Shown here: one piece after another, positions 46,812 through 54,340 of the stretch | How the letters are laid out: each line of letters opens with the position of its first letter | Position numbering within the stretch: the first letter of the stretch is position 1 | From: Chryseobacterium hagamense | Lineage (GTDB): Bacteria > Bacteroidota > Bacteroidia > Flavobacteriales > Weeksellaceae | Length of the DNA: 64,000 bases | Reading direction: 5' to 3' | NCBI RefSeq assembly: GCF_007991455.1 | Contig: NZ_BJYJ01000001.1 | Coordinates: forward strand, 186,001-250,000 | The notes under the pieces: generated by a model | Told to the model about the DNA's origin: nothing | The model's input: only the letters and a program-made list of their open reading frames with translations | The model's database searches: none | Made by a program: the position numbers and the translations under genes

Positions 46812-48590
46812 CTAATAAGTTCCTTTATTAATGTAGTGGGCGGCAATTTTTTCCGTTAATGCCACTACGTTCGGGTGGTTGGTATATTTGGTAAACCTTC
46901 TCAGTCCGGAAAGCATCATTCGTTGTTCATCGCCTTCTGCGAATGAAATAATTCCTTCTTTAGCTGCAACGGTGATTTTTTCTACCGCTTTATAAAGATT
47001 CAGCTGGGCCATTGCGGCCTCTACAGATTCCGGAGCCGAATGCTTTTCAGCCCTGAGAACTGAAGATTCCGCCATGTAGATCTGGTTCAGGATTTCGGAA
47101 GCATTTAGCAAAAGGTGCTGCTGCTTTTCAATATCCATCATGTATTTCTGAAGGGCCGCTCCGGAAACCATCAGGAAAACTTTCTTCAGGTTGGCGATAA
47201 TTGCCTTTTCCTCACTCATGAAAGCAGAATAATCCGGGACGTCAAAGGAAGGAATTCCCATCAGCTCTTTACCAATGGCCATTGCCGGAGACAAGAGATC
47301 CAGTTCTCCTTTCATGGCTCTCTTGATCAGCATTCCTACGGCAAGCAGCCTGTTGATTTCATTGGTTCCTTCGTAAATCCTGGAAATCCGTGAATCTCTC
47401 CATGCCGATTCCATCGGGGTATCTTCAGAGAATCCCATTCCACCGTACACCTGGATTCCTTCGTCCGCTGTATGCTGGGCTAAATCTGAAACAAAAACTT
47501 TCAGGATAGAACATTCCACTGCAAATTCTTCCACGCCTTTCAGCTCTGCCGCCTGGTGATCCATTCCGCCGGCTACCAGTTCATCAATTTTATCCTGGAT
47601 GTCTTTTGCGGCTCTGTAAGATCCGGCTTCACTTACGTAAACCCCGGTTGCCATTTCGGCAATTTTCTTTCTGATCGCTCCAAAAGTGGAAATGGAAACG
47701 CCGAACTGTTTTCTCTCGTTTGAATACTGAATGGAATGGTTCAGGATTCTTCTCTGTGCATCCAGACACGCTGCCGCCAGCTTGATACGGCCTACGTTCA
47801 GGGCATTCAGTGCGATTTTGAAACCGTTGTTTCTTTCGCCCAGAAGGTTCTCTACCGGAACCTTCATGTCGTTGAAGAAAACCTGTCGGGTAGAGGAGGC
47901 CCGGATTCCCAGTTTGTGCTCTTCTTCACCGAAAGTCAGGCTTTCAGGATTTTCCAGTTCGGAACGGTTGATTACAAAGCCGGTAATGTTTTTATCGTCG
48001 TCTATTTTAGCGAATAAAGTAAAAGTATCGGCGAACCCTGCATTGGAAATCCACATCTTCTGTCCGTTGATGAGGTAATGTTTTCCGTCTTCAGATAATC
48101 TGGCTCTCGTTTTACCTGAATTGGCATCAGAACCTGCATCCGGCTCCGTTAAGCAGTAAGCGCCGAATTTTGTACCGGCTGCCAGGTCAGGAAGATACTT
48201 CTGCTTCTGCGCTTCGGTTCCGTACAATACGATCGGTAGGGTTCCGATTCCCGTATGTGCTCCATAGGCTGTTGCCAGAGACCCTGTAGCTCCGGAAATA
48301 TAATCGCAGGCCAGCATGGTCGTTACGAATCCCATTCCCAGGCCGCCGTATTCTTCGGGAACAGCAATTCCCAGCATTCCCATTCCGCCGAGCTTACGCA
48401 TTACTTCCTCCGTTAGCGCATAATCTTTTTTCTCGAAGCGCTCCTTTTGAGGAACCACTTCACGGTCAATAAATTCCTTCGCAGAATCGCGAAGCATTTT
48501 CTGTTCTTCATTCAGCTCTTCAAGACTGAAGATTTCGTTTGCAGGAATTTCCCTGATCAGGAATTCACCACCTTTTACTATATTTCCCAT
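46812..48590 (-). CDS. Acyl-CoA dehydrogenase (long-chain, VLCAD-like), last gene of fad operon
   Basis: A 592-residue FAD enzyme, longer than the 380-residue standard because of a C-terminal extension as in very-long-chain acyl-CoA dehydrogenases. It shows AYCLTEPDAGSDANSGKTRA for FAD contact, MWISNAGFADTFTLFAK, and the catalytic Glu in SRIYEGTNEINRLL. Residues about 430-592 are an extra helical domain. It performs the first oxidation of beta-oxidation. It lies after the thiolase on the minus strand, 111 bp away, and completes the set with marR, hydratase/dehydrogenase and thiolase. Confidence 0.92.
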   Translation of the reverse strand: MGNIVKGGEFLIREIPANEIFSLEELNEEQKMLRDSAKEFIDREVVPQKERFEKKDYALTEEVMRKLGGMGMLGIAVPEEYGGLGMGFVTTMLACDYISGATGSLATAYGAHTGIGTLPIVLYGTEAQKQKYLPDLAAGTKFGAYCLTEPDAGSDANSGKTRARLSEDGKHYLINGQKMWISNAGFADTFTLFAKIDDDKNITGFVINRSELENPESLTFGEEEHKLGIRASSTRQVFFNDMKVPVENLLGERNNGFKIALNALNVGRIKLAAACLDAQRRILNHSIQYSNERKQFGVSISTFGAIRKKIAEMATGVYVSEAGSYRAAKDIQDKIDELVAGGMDHQAAELKGVEEFAVECSILKVFVSDLAQHTADEGIQVYGGMGFSEDTPMESAWRDSRISRIYEGTNEINRLLAVGMLIKRAMKGELDLLSPAMAIGKELMGIPSFDVPDYSAFMSEEKAIIANLKKVFLMVSGAALQKYMMDIEKQQHLLLNASEILNQIYMAESSVLRAEKHSAPESVEAAMAQLNLYKAVEKITVAAKEGIISFAEGDEQRMMLSGLRRFTKYTNHPNVVALTEKIAAHYINKGTY

Positions 48591-48701: not shown

Positions 48702-49880
48702 TTAAAGTAATTCAAAAATACTGGCTGCTCCCTGACCGGTTCCTACGCACATGGTCACCAGACCATATTTGTTTCCGCGTTTTCTCATCTCATCAAGCAG
48801 CTGAACCGTCAGTTTGGTTCCGGTACATCCCAGCGGGTGACCTAAAGCGATGGCGCCTCCGTTAACGTTTAGAATATCAGGATTTAAATCCAACTCTTTT
48901 TTTATAGCTACGGATTGGGACGCAAAAGCCTCATTCATTTCGATCAGCTCAATATCCTTCAGTTTCAGTCCCGCCTGTTTTAATGCTTTCGGAATCGCGT
49001 AAAGCGGACCCATTCCCATAATTCTCGGCTCGAGACCGGCAGCAGCGTAGGAAACCAGTCTGGCTTCCGGCTGTAATCCGAGTTCTTTTACCATTTCTTC
49101 ACTCATTACGACTACAAAAGCCGCTCCGTCACTCATCTGAGACGAGTTTCCTGCCGTTACGCTTCCGCCGTTCGCAAAAACGGGCTTCAGTTTGGCAAGG
49201 CCTTCCAGGGATGTATCTGCTCTCGGGCCTTCATCCACGGCGAAGTCAAACTTCTTGGTCTGTATTTTTTGGTTTTCATCCAGAAAATTATATTCTACGG
49301 GAACCGGAACGATCTGACTTGCAAATCTGCCTTCCTGATTAGCTTTTAATGCCTTTCTGTGAGATTCAAAGGCAAATGCGTCCTGTTCTTCTCTGGTAAT
49401 GTTATACTGTTTGGCCACTTCTTCTGCAGTGTAGCCCATGCCCCAGTAATAATCGGGGTTTGTTTTGGCAATATCCGTTTCCGGTACCGGCTTGTAACCG
49501 CCCATCGGAATATAGGACATGGATTCCGTACCGCCTGCAATGATACAGTCGGCCATACCGGCCTGGATTTTTGCGGAAGCAATGGCAATCGCTTCACTTC
49601 CTGATGCACAATACCTGTTGACGGTAACGCCCGGAACTTTGTCGGTATTCAATCCCATCAGCGAAATCAGACGCGCTACATTCAGTCCCTGTTCTGCTTC
49701 CGGCATGGCATTTCCTACGATCAGGTCATCCACTTTGTTTTTATCCAGTTGCGGAAGCTCGGCCATTAATTTTTCAATTACGGTAGCGGCCATTATGTCG
49801 GGTCTTGTAAACCGTAAACTTCCTTTTGGTGCTTTTCCAACGGCGGTTCTGAACCCTTTTACTATATATGCTGTTTTCAT
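48702..49880 (-). CDS. fadA: Acetyl-CoA acyltransferase (thiolase)
   Basis: A 392-residue thiolase of standard length. The nucleophile Cys91 is in NRYCASGSEAI. The C-terminal motifs are NVNGGAIALGHPLGCTG (catalytic His) and GLVTMCVGTGQGAASIFE (second Cys). GGTESMSYIPMGGYKP is the family loop. In the beta-oxidation operon it most likely acts in the degradative direction, cleaving 3-ketoacyl-CoA to acetyl-CoA. A four-helix-bundle gene separates it from the upstream hydratase/dehydrogenase. Confidence 0.94.
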   Translation of the reverse strand: MKTAYIVKGFRTAVGKAPKGSLRFTRPDIMAATVIEKLMAELPQLDKNKVDDLIVGNAMPEAEQGLNVARLISLMGLNTDKVPGVTVNRYCASGSEAIAIASAKIQAGMADCIIAGGTESMSYIPMGGYKPVPETDIAKTNPDYYWGMGYTAEEVAKQYNITREEQDAFAFESHRKALKANQEGRFASQIVPVPVEYNFLDENQKIQTKKFDFAVDEGPRADTSLEGLAKLKPVFANGGSVTAGNSSQMSDGAAFVVVMSEEMVKELGLQPEARLVSYAAAGLEPRIMGMGPLYAIPKALKQAGLKLKDIELIEMNEAFASQSVAIKKELDLNPDILNVNGGAIALGHPLGCTGTKLTVQLLDEMRKRGNKYGLVTMCVGTGQGAASIFELL

Positions 49881-49926: not shown

Positions 49927-50280
49927 TTAACTTGAGTAAACTTTTTTCAGTTTTATAATCATATTTTGTATATGCTGTATTTCAATTAACGTTTTCTGGA
50001 ATTTACCTTCCGCAAAAAATTCACATTCCTTTGCGATGATAATCTGGGTTTCAAATTCAAAAGAAGAACCTAAAGCAATATTTAAAAAATGTGAGAACTG
50101 AGCATTGGTATCTCTGCCTGCTCCTTCCGCTATATTGGATGGAATTGAATATAAACATCTTCTTGATTGAGCAATTAAACCAAATAGCTTATCTTTAGGA
50201 AATTCTTTCGAAAAGAAATAATAGATTTTACAAAGCTGAATAGATTTTTTCCAAACTTCTAATTGCCTAAAATCATGCAT
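49927..50280 (-). CDS. Four-helix-bundle protein (S23/IVS family)
   Basis: A 117-residue protein with the family start MHDFRQLEVWKKSIQLCKIYYFFSKEFPKDKLFGLIAQSRRCLYSIPSNIAEGAGR. It is predicted as an antiparallel four-helix bundle that oligomerises. The first family members were found in 23S rRNA intervening sequences; stand-alone copies are common in Bacteroidota. Here it sits inside the beta-oxidation operon, between the thiolase and the hydratase/dehydrogenase, 46 bp from each. Function is unknown. It is AT-richer than its neighbours, suggesting later insertion. Confidence 0.88.
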   Translation of the reverse strand: MHDFRQLEVWKKSIQLCKIYYFFSKEFPKDKLFGLIAQSRRCLYSIPSNIAEGAGRDTNAQFSHFLNIALGSSFEFETQIIIAKECEFFAEGKFQKTLIEIQHIQNMIIKLKKVYSS

Positions 50281-50326: not shown

Positions 50327-52720
50327 CTAGTTTCTCAATGGTTTTCCATTCTGTAACATGTACTGGATTCTTTCCAATGTTTTTCTTTCCCCGCAAAGCT
50401 GCAGGAAAGTCTCTCTTTCGAGATTAAGCAGATACTGCTCGGTAACCACGGTTTCTTCGGAAAGATTTCCTCCGACCATAACATTGGCCAGTTTATCGGC
50501 AATCTTTTTGTCATGCTCGGAAATATAGTTTCCGGTAAGCATCTGGTCGGTTCCGACGTAGAACATTCCGAGGGCATCTTTCCCTAAAACTTTTACCTTT
50601 TGCTCGATAGGCTGGGTATAGCCGTGTTCGGCTAAGCTTTTTGCCAGCATTTTTGCGGTCATGATCTGGTTCCTCTTATCTACGGAAACGATGTCCTTTC
50701 CATGCTCGAGAATTCCCATGTCGTAGGCTTCGTAGGCAGACGTGGCCACTTTACCCATCGCAATATTCATAAAGGCTTCCCGTAGACGGTTGTTCTTAAC
50801 ATCATCTTTATGGAATTCCCTCGATGTTCTCAGGGTAAGCTCTTTGGTACCGCCACCACCCGGAATTACTCCGACTCCTGTTTCTACCAGTCCGATATAG
50901 GTTTCTGCTGCGGCAACCACACGGTCGGCATGCATTGTCATTTCACATCCGCCGCCTAAAGTCATACCGTGAGGAGCAACCACAACCGGAACAGAGGAGT
51001 AGCGTACCCGCATCATGGATTTCTGGAAATAAGCGATCGCCATATTCAGATCGTCCCAGTCCTGTTCGATGGCCATCATCAGAATCATGGCCAGGTTGGC
51101 TCCCACGGAGAAATTGGTTCCCTGGTTACCGATAACAAGACCGTCGTATTCTTTTTCGGCGAGATCGATGGCCCGGTTTAATCCATCCAGGACTTCACCC
51201 CCTAAAGAATTCATCTTTGAACGGATTTCAAAGTTGATGATGCCGTCGCCCAGATCTTCAATTGCCACTCCGGAATTGCTCCAAAGGGTTTTGTTTTTCC
51301 GGATATTGTCTAAAATGATCAGTGAATCCTGCCCCGGGATTTTGCCGTATTCACCTGAGTTTTTATCAACATAAATACTTTGTCCGTCTTCATTTACCTT
51401 ATAAAAGGTTTCCACATTCTTCACCCAGTCCGATACGTCGTAGCCGGCATCCTCAGCAAGCTCAATACCTTTTTGAACACCAACGGCATCCCAGATTTCA
51501 AACGGTCCGTTTTCCCATCCGAAACCTGCTTTCATGGCATCATCGATCTTGTATACCTCATCGGAGATTTCAGGGACTTTATGTGAAACGTAAGCGAACA
51601 GGGCACCCAGTGATTTCCGGTAAAGTTCTCCGGCCTTATCTTTACCGCCGATCAACACTTTAAAACGGTCGATCGGTTTGTCTATGTTTTTAGTCAGTTC
51701 CAGGGTCGGGAAGGAAGATTTTCCCTGCAGCTCATAATCCATGGTATCCAGGTTCAACCCATGGATTTCGGACTTGCCGTCTGCATTTTTCACTTTCTTA
51801 TAAAAACCCTGCTGGGTTTTGGAACCCAGCCATTTGTTATCCACCATCTTCTGGATATACCCCGGAAGAGCGAATACATCATTAAAATTATTAGCTTCCG
51901 CACCGCTCTGGCGTACGCCGTTGGCTACCATAACCAAAGTATCCAGACCAACCACGTCCGCTGTCCTGAATGTTGCTGATTTCGGACGCCCGATAACCGG
52001 TCCTGTCAGTTTATCAACTTCGGAAACCGTCAATCCTAACTTCTGTACATTATGAAGCAGATCCATCATAGAAAACACTCCGATTCTGTTGGCAATGAAC
52101 GCAGGGGTATCTTTCGCCAGAACCGTTGTTTTTCCAAGGAATTTTGCACCGTAGTTCATGTAAAACTCGATTACTTCGGGAAGGGTATCGTGGGTTGGGA
52201 TCACCTCCAGTAAGGGAAGGTAACGCACCGGATTAAAGAAATGGGTTCCTGCAAAATACTGTTTGAAGTCCTCGCTTCTTCCTTCCGTTAAGAAGTGAAT
52301 CGGAATTCCGGAGGTATTGGAAGAAATTAAAGTTCCCGGTTTTCTGAACTGTTCTATTTTTTCGTAAACGGATTTTTTGATGTCCAGTTTTTCTACGACG
52401 ACCTCGATAATCCAGTCCGTATTTTTTATTTTAGGCAAATCATCATTAAAGTTTCCGACGGTAATTCTATCTGCGAATTTCGGCGAATAGAGCAGTGCCG
52501 GACTTGCTTTCTTCAGTTTTTCAAAATTTTCTGAAGCAATCCTGTTTCTTACCGTTTTGTCGTCTCTGGTTAAACCTTTTTTCTGTTCTGCTTCGTTCAG
52601 CTCAAAAGGAACAATATCGAGCAGCGATACCTGGACGCCGATATTGGCAAAATGCGCCGCAATACCGCTTCCCATAATTCCTGAACCAAGAACGGTCACG
52701 TGTTTGATTCTTCTTTTCAT
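50327..52720 (-). CDS. Fused 3-hydroxyacyl-CoA dehydrogenase / enoyl-CoA hydratase
   Basis: A 797-residue bifunctional enzyme. The NAD-binding dehydrogenase comes first (VTVLGSGIMGSGIAAHFANIG; GTHFFNPVRYLPLLEVIPT) with its C-terminal dimerisation repeats (about 190-430). The crotonase-like hydratase is at the C-terminus (about 480-790; oxyanion-hole segment HGMTLGGGCEMTMHADR, and ETGVGVIPGGGGTKELTLR). This order is the reverse of E. coli FadB, where hydratase precedes dehydrogenase. It catalyses the two middle steps of beta-oxidation. It is 80 bp downstream of marR and probably shares its promoter. Confidence 0.93.
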   Translation of the reverse strand: MKRRIKHVTVLGSGIMGSGIAAHFANIGVQVSLLDIVPFELNEAEQKKGLTRDDKTVRNRIASENFEKLKKASPALLYSPKFADRITVGNFNDDLPKIKNTDWIIEVVVEKLDIKKSVYEKIEQFRKPGTLISSNTSGIPIHFLTEGRSEDFKQYFAGTHFFNPVRYLPLLEVIPTHDTLPEVIEFYMNYGAKFLGKTTVLAKDTPAFIANRIGVFSMMDLLHNVQKLGLTVSEVDKLTGPVIGRPKSATFRTADVVGLDTLVMVANGVRQSGAEANNFNDVFALPGYIQKMVDNKWLGSKTQQGFYKKVKNADGKSEIHGLNLDTMDYELQGKSSFPTLELTKNIDKPIDRFKVLIGGKDKAGELYRKSLGALFAYVSHKVPEISDEVYKIDDAMKAGFGWENGPFEIWDAVGVQKGIELAEDAGYDVSDWVKNVETFYKVNEDGQSIYVDKNSGEYGKIPGQDSLIILDNIRKNKTLWSNSGVAIEDLGDGIINFEIRSKMNSLGGEVLDGLNRAIDLAEKEYDGLVIGNQGTNFSVGANLAMILMMAIEQDWDDLNMAIAYFQKSMMRVRYSSVPVVVAPHGMTLGGGCEMTMHADRVVAAAETYIGLVETGVGVIPGGGGTKELTLRTSREFHKDDVKNNRLREAFMNIAMGKVATSAYEAYDMGILEHGKDIVSVDKRNQIMTAKMLAKSLAEHGYTQPIEQKVKVLGKDALGMFYVGTDQMLTGNYISEHDKKIADKLANVMVGGNLSEETVVTEQYLLNLERETFLQLCGERKTLERIQYMLQNGKPLRN

Positions 52721-52800: not shown

Positions 52801-53253
52801 TTATTTTTTGTTGTTGATATCCGATGCGATTTTCATTATCTCACTCATAACTTCCTTGAAGGTTTCGAGTTTATCCGGTGATATCTTCTCCATGACCTTC
52901 TTATTGAAGTTGACAACTACCTCTTTAGACATGTTTCTGGAGTTGAGGCCTTTATCCGTAAGTTTGATAATGACTTCCCGCTTATCGGTGGTGGTCTTTT
53001 CTTTATAGATATAGCCGTTATCTTCGAGGAGTTTGATAATTCTGGTGAGGGAAGTAGGCTCAATTGCCATTTTCGGGCCGAGATTGGTACTTCTTGTTCC
53101 TTCTTTAGGATCAATTTTTAAAAGAGTAAGGGCCTGGACCGCCGTAGAATCATGTTCCTGGGCCAGTTCGGTATACATTTTGGAAACAGCCAGCCAGGTC
53201 TGCTTTAAGATTAAATCTACGTTCTCTATTTTTTCTTTATTATTATCCATCAT
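52801..53253 (-). CDS. MarR-family regulator of the beta-oxidation operon
   Basis: A 150-residue winged-helix regulator. LTLLKIDPKEGTRSTNLGPKMAIEPTSLTRIIKLLEDNGYIYKEKTTTDKREVIIKLTDKG holds the MarR recognition helix and the DxR wing motif. It is the first gene of the minus-strand fad operon. Two palindromic sites upstream (53289-53306, 53371-53390) have the length and symmetry of MarR operators, and one overlaps the predicted promoter. Repression relieved by fatty acid or acyl-CoA is the expected but inferred logic. Confidence 0.9.
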   Translation of the reverse strand: MMDNNKEKIENVDLILKQTWLAVSKMYTELAQEHDSTAVQALTLLKIDPKEGTRSTNLGPKMAIEPTSLTRIIKLLEDNGYIYKEKTTTDKREVIIKLTDKGLNSRNMSKEVVVNFNKKVMEKISPDKLETFKEVMSEIMKIASDINNKK

Positions 53254-53275
53254 TTTTTACTGAATGGTTCTAAAC

Positions 53276-53283
53276 CAAATTTA
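53276..53283 (-). promoter_or_regulatory. fad operon -7 box TAAATTTG
   Basis: A full TAnnTTTG match on the minus strand, 22 bp upstream of the marR ATG. Palindrome 1 lies immediately upstream, in the -33/-7 spacer. Confidence 0.6.
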
Positions 53284-53288
53284 GTAAA

Positions 53289-53306
53289 TATTATGCATGC
53301 ATAGTA
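53289..53306. promoter_or_regulatory. Candidate MarR operator 1
   Basis: TATTATGCATGCATAGTA contains the perfect 12-bp palindrome TATGCATGCATA (53292-53303). It lies between the predicted -33 and -7 positions of the fad promoter, where a bound dimer would block RNA polymerase. Confidence 0.6.
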
Positions 53307-53370
53307 TTTATTTGCGTTAAAATTTGTTAATAAAATGAAAATGAGGATGTTAATTAATATGAGAAGCATA

Positions 53371-53390
53371 ATATTATGCATGCATAATAT
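53371..53390. promoter_or_regulatory. Candidate MarR operator 2
   Basis: ATATTATGCATGCATAATAT is a perfect 20-bp palindrome with the same TATGCATGCATA core as operator 1, 83 bp away centre to centre (about eight helical turns). Confidence 0.65.
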
Positions 53391-53416: not shown

Positions 53417-54340
53417 TTAATGAATGGTTTTCACGAATTTAACGATTTCTTCAAAAGATTCGCATTGCTGCAACAGGTGACCGGAGGTAACCAGCCAAAT
53501 ATCATTCCGGAATTCAAATTGTAGTGAAGAAAGGTCTTTTCGAAAGTTTTTCTGAAGCAGGGAATACAGCATTTCTTTATAAGTATCCGGCGCTTTGATC
53601 AAGGGAGGGACAAAATTCTCGTTGATCTCAAAAAGAGTGGGATTAAGCAATTCATCATGCCTTAGCAGAACATCTTCCACAATCCCCGAGTATAATTGTC
53701 CTTCTTTCACATACCAGATCTTATCGGCAAACTCTTTAGCGAGGCGCCAGTCGTGGGAAGAGAAAAGGATGAGCTTGTTTTGCTCTTTCGCCAGTTTTCT
53801 GAGGGTTTTGAGAATGATGATCTTATTTTTTTCATCCAGATGGGTCGTCGGCTCATCCAGGATAATGATCGGGGAGTTTTGGGTTATGGCCCTTCCGATA
53901 AATGCTTTCTGAAGGTTACCGTCCGAAAGGTTTTTCAGCAGCGTATCTTTATACTGTAAAAGATCCAGTTCCCGGATGATCCGGGAAACCTCCTCACGGT
54001 CTTCTTTTTTCAGTTCAAAATAAAAAGGATAATAAATATATTTCCCCAGCGAAATCAGGTCTTCCACCGTGTAATTCTGCGGAACCGGAGCAGTTGAAAA
54101 AACCACGGCAATCTGTTCTGCAATTTCCTTTACGGAAAAGTGCCTGATGTTTTTATCCTCAATAAAAATGTCTCCATCAAGCAAATCAGTCTGATTTAGG
54201 ATCGATTTGATTAAAGTGGTTTTCCCCACACCGTTGTCTCCGATCAGCAGGCATACTTCTCCCAGATGCAGATGGGCATCTGCTTTTGAAATTAAGTTTT
54301 TATTATAGCCAATGTCTGCCTGTTTAATTATTAAATGCAT
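53417..54340 (-). CDS. ABC transporter ATP-binding protein (FecE-like)
   Basis: A 307-residue ATPase with Walker A GDNGVGKTTLIK, the variant signature LSDGNLQKAFIGRA, Walker B IIILDEPTTHLD and switch His in LFSSHDWRL. It is longer than FecE/FhuC (about 255 residues), with an extra C-terminal region of unknown use after residue 240. It serves the FecCD-type permease encoded upstream on the same strand and likely imports an iron chelate, heme or corrinoid. Its start overlaps the preceding small membrane-protein gene by 17 bp, indicating translational coupling. Confidence 0.87.
   Translation of the reverse strand: MHLIIKQADIGYNKNLISKADAHLHLGEVCLLIGDNGVGKTTLIKSILNQTDLLDGDIFIEDKNIRHFSVKEIAEQIAVVFSTAPVPQNYTVEDLISLGKYIYYPFYFELKKEDREEVSRIIRELDLLQYKDTLLKNLSDGNLQKAFIGRAITQNSPIIILDEPTTHLDEKNKIIILKTLRKLAKEQNKLILFSSHDWRLAKEFADKIWYVKEGQLYSGIVEDVLLRHDELLNPTLFEINENFVPPLIKAPDTYKEMLYSLLQKNFRKDLSSLQFEFRNDIWLVTSGHLLQQCESFEEIVKFVKTIH

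Follow-up and report, generated by a model that had tools for sequence, protein, structure and literature searches.

A palindromic site upstream of marR-fad as the predicted operator of a MarR-family regulator of beta-oxidation in Bacteroidia

The marR-fad operon and its regulator

The window, i.e. the whole stretch of 64,000 nucleotides of Chryseobacterium hagamense DNA that was analysed, carries a beta-oxidation operon on its minus strand. The first gene of this operon, marR (52801..53253), codes for the proposed regulator, and is followed by a fadB-like gene for a 3-hydroxyacyl-CoA dehydrogenase/enoyl-CoA hydratase (50327..52720), identified by profile matches and found after marR across the class. 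Further downstream lie the genes for an acyl-CoA thiolase (48702..49880), also recognised by profile matches, and for a FadE-type acyl-CoA dehydrogenase (46812..48590) scoring above the cut-off of NF058590. This gene order, marR-fadB-thiolase-acyl-CoA dehydrogenase, is widespread. Between fadB and the thiolase gene, the operon of the window also holds an inserted gene for a four-helix-bundle protein of the 23S rRNA IVP family (49927..50280, minus strand; PF05635 and TIGR02436). Relatives of this gene are found repeatedly in the fad operons of the class, at varying positions, either between fadB and thiolase or between thiolase and acyl-CoA dehydrogenase, with two copies at locus L344, as if they had been placed there by repeated insertion.

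All the tests run here place the regulator in the MarR family. Its winged-helix domain matches PF01047 with 43.3 bits against a cut-off of 24.6, the AlphaFold model (a winged helix with a pLDDT of 90) and the Foldseek matches agree with this assignment, and a pseudo-palindromic operator in or near the own promoter, a trait of the family, is present as well. Only MarR-type winged-helix domains were found in the protein, a GntR or TetR domain being absent, and none of the named MarR equivalogs (HpaR, OhrR, SlyA, MarR, AdcR and others) reached its NCBIfam cut-off, the best score being 47 bits against 200. Searching by fold returned MarR proteins of a general kind, CouR and FabT included, that share about 14-25% identity with the regulator; no close solved structure was found among them. 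Among the matches listed, one of the nearest named loci, L307 from an uncultured Chryseobacterium, encodes a MarR that is 98% identical. Across 26 orthologues, there is no variation at E64, S67 and R70 of the recognition helix, at D89 and R91 of the wing, or at four other positions: W19, M25 and Y26 (helix 1) and F115 (helix 5). These last four presumably fall in the region where MarR proteins usually bind their ligand.

Operator sites and promoter architecture

Upstream of marR lies a gap of 163 bp, bounded on its far side by a gene for a FecE-like ABC ATPase that is encoded on the same strand as marR and ends at 53417. The original prediction described two sites with a shared core in this gap, the second one being a perfect 20-bp palindrome 83 bp away from the first, and all of this holds: the gap contains two exact copies of the core TATGCATGCATA, at 53292-53303 and 53375-53386, with a core-to-core spacing of 83 bp. 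Operator 1 (53289..53306, unstranded) reads TACTATGCATGCATAATA on the minus strand with one mismatched pair, and its core is identical in 19 of the 19 aligned genus members. Operator 2 (53371..53390, unstranded), upstream of operator 1, is the perfect palindrome ATATTATGCATGCATAATAT; it is found in eight genera of the family and is missing from many others. A degenerate third operator, TATGA-N3-GCATA (53358..53370, unstranded), adjoins operator 2 and is kept as TTATGCnnnTCATAT across the eight genera, in which it usually follows operator 2 (in the form TATGC-N3-TCATA). This third site, together with the etfB site and the class-wide conservation described below, goes beyond what had been noticed before.

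Operator 1 was also thought to occupy the spacer between a -33 and a -7 element. The -7 part of this claim stands, since a perfect -7 box, TAAATTTG, lies at 53276..53283 on the minus strand, its first T being 14 nt from the core centre of operator 1. There is, by contrast, no recognisable -33 TTTG, and in the marR promoter the operator itself fills the region from about -35 to -18. The missing element is a minor matter, because the -33 motif is hardly evident in the promoters of F. johnsoniae (PMC6847099). With the numbering of the same study, which puts the T at -12 and the G at -5, transcription is predicted to begin near 53271, and the marR ATG would follow 18 nt further on. The geometry is a general one: in 69 of the family's 76 marR sites, TAnnTTTG starts at a distance of 13-18 nt from the core centre, against a background rate of 1%. 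In place of it, the etfB promoters mostly have a TAnnTTAG-type box, 17 to 21 nt from the core.

Besides the operators, a TTAAC-N5-TTAAC direct repeat (53316..53330, minus strand) lies upstream of operator 1 and is kept in the genus and in several other genera; in its N5/6 form, it occurs mostly in the genera with a distance of 14 nt between -7 box and core. It is possible that this repeat is the site of a second factor, maybe an activator, but its count across the own genome was not clearly set apart from that of its control. Between operators 2 and 1, at 53331-53357, a TTAA block and then T[GT]ATTnTCA are also kept across several genera. Such conserved DNA around the operators (the TTAAC repeat and TGATTnTCA) suggests that additional factors act at the promoter.

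Genomic copies and conservation within the family

A genome scan for the palindrome had been proposed as a check. The 4.67-Mb genome contains exactly three exact cores, where about 0.45 would be expected by base composition; no match was obtained with the reversed-pattern control. The third one has its centre 146 nt upstream of etfB-etfA, so that the three cores precede two transcription units, marR-fad and etfB-etfA. ETF is the electron acceptor of acyl-CoA dehydrogenases, and all three cores therefore stand before genes of fatty-acid oxidation. When three mismatches were allowed in the 18-mer, one extra poor match appeared in the own genome. A fourth match to TATGCNNGCATA (C1:63196) lies within a coding sequence and was put down to chance.

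Conservation near orthologous fad operons had been set beforehand as a test that could refute the prediction, and the core turned out to be kept across the family and the class. The family set comprised 148 genomes, which are non-independent samples, 20 of them from the genus. Exactly three cores are present in 19 of the 20 genus members, the exception being G072, a fragmented assembly in which a contig end cuts fadB. Family-wide, TATGCnnGCATA is found upstream of marR in 76 of 79 regions and upstream of etfB in 48 of 58; the etfB site is missing despite the presence of MarR in G003, G007, G015 and G025. The operator occurs a second time, over the start region, in g11 and g20. When all 1024 possible 5+2+5 palindromes were ranked with one genome per genus, TATGCNNGCATA came out on top in three independent sets, with 27 of 30 upstream regions at marR (3 of 30 for the next best) and 23 of 29 at etfB (2 for the runner-up).

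The regulator, fadB and the etfB site are also absent together in several genomes. The 12 family genomes without a MarR orthologue contain a single core in total, and fadB is missing from them or represented by weak matches only. The one core, in G016, lies within a transporter gene and is attributed to chance. Three genomes (G016, G029 and G081) have kept etfB, the site of which is missing. A Fisher test of the joint absence gives p 1.6e-7, a value that ignores relatedness and is hence only indicative. A separate case is G002 (locus L070), which has an intact MarR orthologue with 75% identity, no fadB, and no operator at marR or etfB.

Conservation across the class

At loci from other families of the order and the class, where MarR identity falls to 37-50%, the core is found in 32 of 37. 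Nearly all of them have fadB downstream, and in many the distance between core and TAnnTTTG equals that in the family. It is still there in two loci with about 30% MarR identity (L401 and L403). In L229, L231 and L239, MarR is present and the core is not, and the other classes of the phylum yielded only generic MarR proteins, with neither fadB nor the core.

The regulons of distant genomes were read from a scan based on DNA only, in which TATGCATGCATA-N7-13-TANNTTTG, i.e. the operator and the -7 box, was searched in about 85,000 species genomes and returned at least 118 stretches. The matches listed come almost all from Bacteroidota. In a separate search, a degenerate pattern that was one base out of register, and hence of use as a negative control only, gave 0-1 matches per genome. 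Among the at least 120 places listed, 87 are marR promoters (84 by BLAST, and three by eye where the sequence ended). Most of the others listed stand before genes of fatty-acid oxidation. Ten precede genes for acyl-CoA dehydrogenases, one etfB, two hotdog thioesterases and one an SDR, and another two a membrane protein with 4Fe-4S clusters and an architecture resembling that of EtfD (L283, from 1263 onward, and L294; one of them a fragment). EtfD is proposed to connect ETF to the respiratory chain. Another 11 matches listed precede an NMO/FabK-like flavoprotein (L243, L244, L258, L273, L284, L301, L330, L331, L333, L341 and L360), which suggests that this protein is linked with fatty-acid oxidation via the shared operator and -7 box. 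The remaining six places listed are unrelated, incomplete or without assignment. In L281 and L343, the operator and -7 box stand before genes for M28-like and M16-like peptidases, either by chance or as members of the regulon.

Proposed mechanism and alternative explanations

Sites, promoter geometry, conservation, gene content and joint absence are all directly visible in the sequences. On this comparative basis, TAnTATGCnnGCATAnTA is very probably the operator of the adjacent MarR, a predicted class-wide autorepressor of beta-oxidation in Bacteroidia that would act by blocking RNA polymerase; the original claim that the sites are operators of this protein, one of them within its own promoter, is thereby reinforced by their conservation throughout the class. 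Without inducer, a MarR dimer would sit on operator 1, next to the -7 box on its upstream side, and keep RNA polymerase off the marR-fadB-thiolase-fadE promoter, and the same dimer would repress etfB-etfA. Operator 2 and the degenerate operator 3 may be auxiliary sites by which some members of the family raise local occupancy, possibly through cooperative binding. On the arrival of fatty acids, an inducer, most likely acyl-CoA, would take the repressor off the DNA. Such a circuit would limit itself, marR being the operon's first gene. The chances that an ancestral MarR sensor of acyl-CoA governs beta-oxidation as master repressor in all of Bacteroidia, with a near-invariant operator positioned directly upstream of the -7 box and a regulon that includes the NMO/FabK-like flavoprotein and the putative EtfD, are in our opinion about even.

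That the palindromes would merely reflect chance is next to impossible: short palindromes do arise in AT-rich intergenic DNA, but conservation, promoter geometry and gene specificity all contradict such an origin here. Another regulator might bind the palindrome, MarR being simply encoded nearby, and G002, which keeps MarR without sites, could be read in this way. This is very unlikely in view of the adjacency of marR and site across the class, and of the loss of the etfB site in genomes without MarR; moreover, the invariant residues of the recognition helix and wing match an invariant operator, and are therefore counted in favour of MarR as the binder. It is just as improbable that MarR activates transcription from these sites. 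Promoters devoid of a -33 consensus might need help, but a dimer bound between about -35 and -18, beside the -7 box, should block RNA polymerase, and the second copy over the start region in g11 and g20 likewise speaks against activation. We therefore favour repression by MarR as the sign of the regulation.

Two further points concern how this MarR repressor would work. Acyl-CoA thioesters specifically, and not free fatty acids, acyl-ACP or a redox signal, have somewhat better than even chances of being the inducer. The argument is one of pathway logic, every clear member of the regulon working on or after acyl-CoA. CoA esters also act as the releasing ligands of MarR repressors in other pathways, p-coumaroyl-CoA in the case of CouR; on the other side, the proteins matched by fold are generic members of the MarR family whose ligands vary. 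As for the twin operators, the original prediction had raised looping over whole helical turns. The 83 bp found throughout the genus do correspond to 7.9 turns, but seven genomes of g26 have a spacing of 78 bp (7.4 turns) and other genera one of 82 or 84 bp, many genera lack the second site, and in other lineages pairs of operators are 29-33 bp apart. These spacings rule out looping across eight turns as a firm claim and leave a phased loop formed by MarR improbable; they are a better fit to added occupancy.

Significance and relation to known systems

A candidate regulator and an exact operator can now be given for fatty-acid degradation in Bacteroidia. In Flavobacterium psychrophilum, beta-oxidation genes were found to be strongly induced in fish mucus and plasma, which was "unexpected" to the authors, and a MarR is not mentioned in that paper (PMC9723704). 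The operator and -7 box could serve in annotating genes of fatty-acid oxidation in Flavobacteriales and Cytophagales, and could suggest what flavoprotein and Fe-S genes do where these share the pair.

Fatty-acid degradation has known regulators in Proteobacteria and some other groups. No description of this MarR regulator and no regulator of fatty-acid degradation for Bacteroidia were found in the open-access literature searched. The regulator thus appears to be undescribed: MarR autorepressors are known as a kind, while the assignment to this pathway and lineage is apparently new. Within the MarR fold, FabT from Streptococcus (PDB 6jbx) also acts in lipid metabolism, although it controls fatty-acid synthesis, in Firmicutes, and its NCBIfam equivalog model NF050133 gives the present MarR only 27.8 bits against a cut-off of 200. 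CouR (PDB 6c2s), for which a DNA-bound structure is available, shares the fold as well, but with about 21% identity in the fold match and a role in an aromatic-acid pathway. By function, the FadR of Sulfolobus acidocaldarius (PMC6449355) similarly regulates genes of fatty-acid metabolism, whereas it is an archaeal protein with a TetR fold and an unrelated operator. The closest parallel in terms of apparent role lies in FadR (GntR), PsrA (TetR) and FadP (TetR), the fatty-acid-degradation regulators of Proteobacteria, in which one regulator and its palindromic site likewise preside over dispersed beta-oxidation operons (PMC5343134). In contrast to these members of the GntR and TetR families, the task would here fall to a MarR protein, with another operator and on Bacteroidota promoters.
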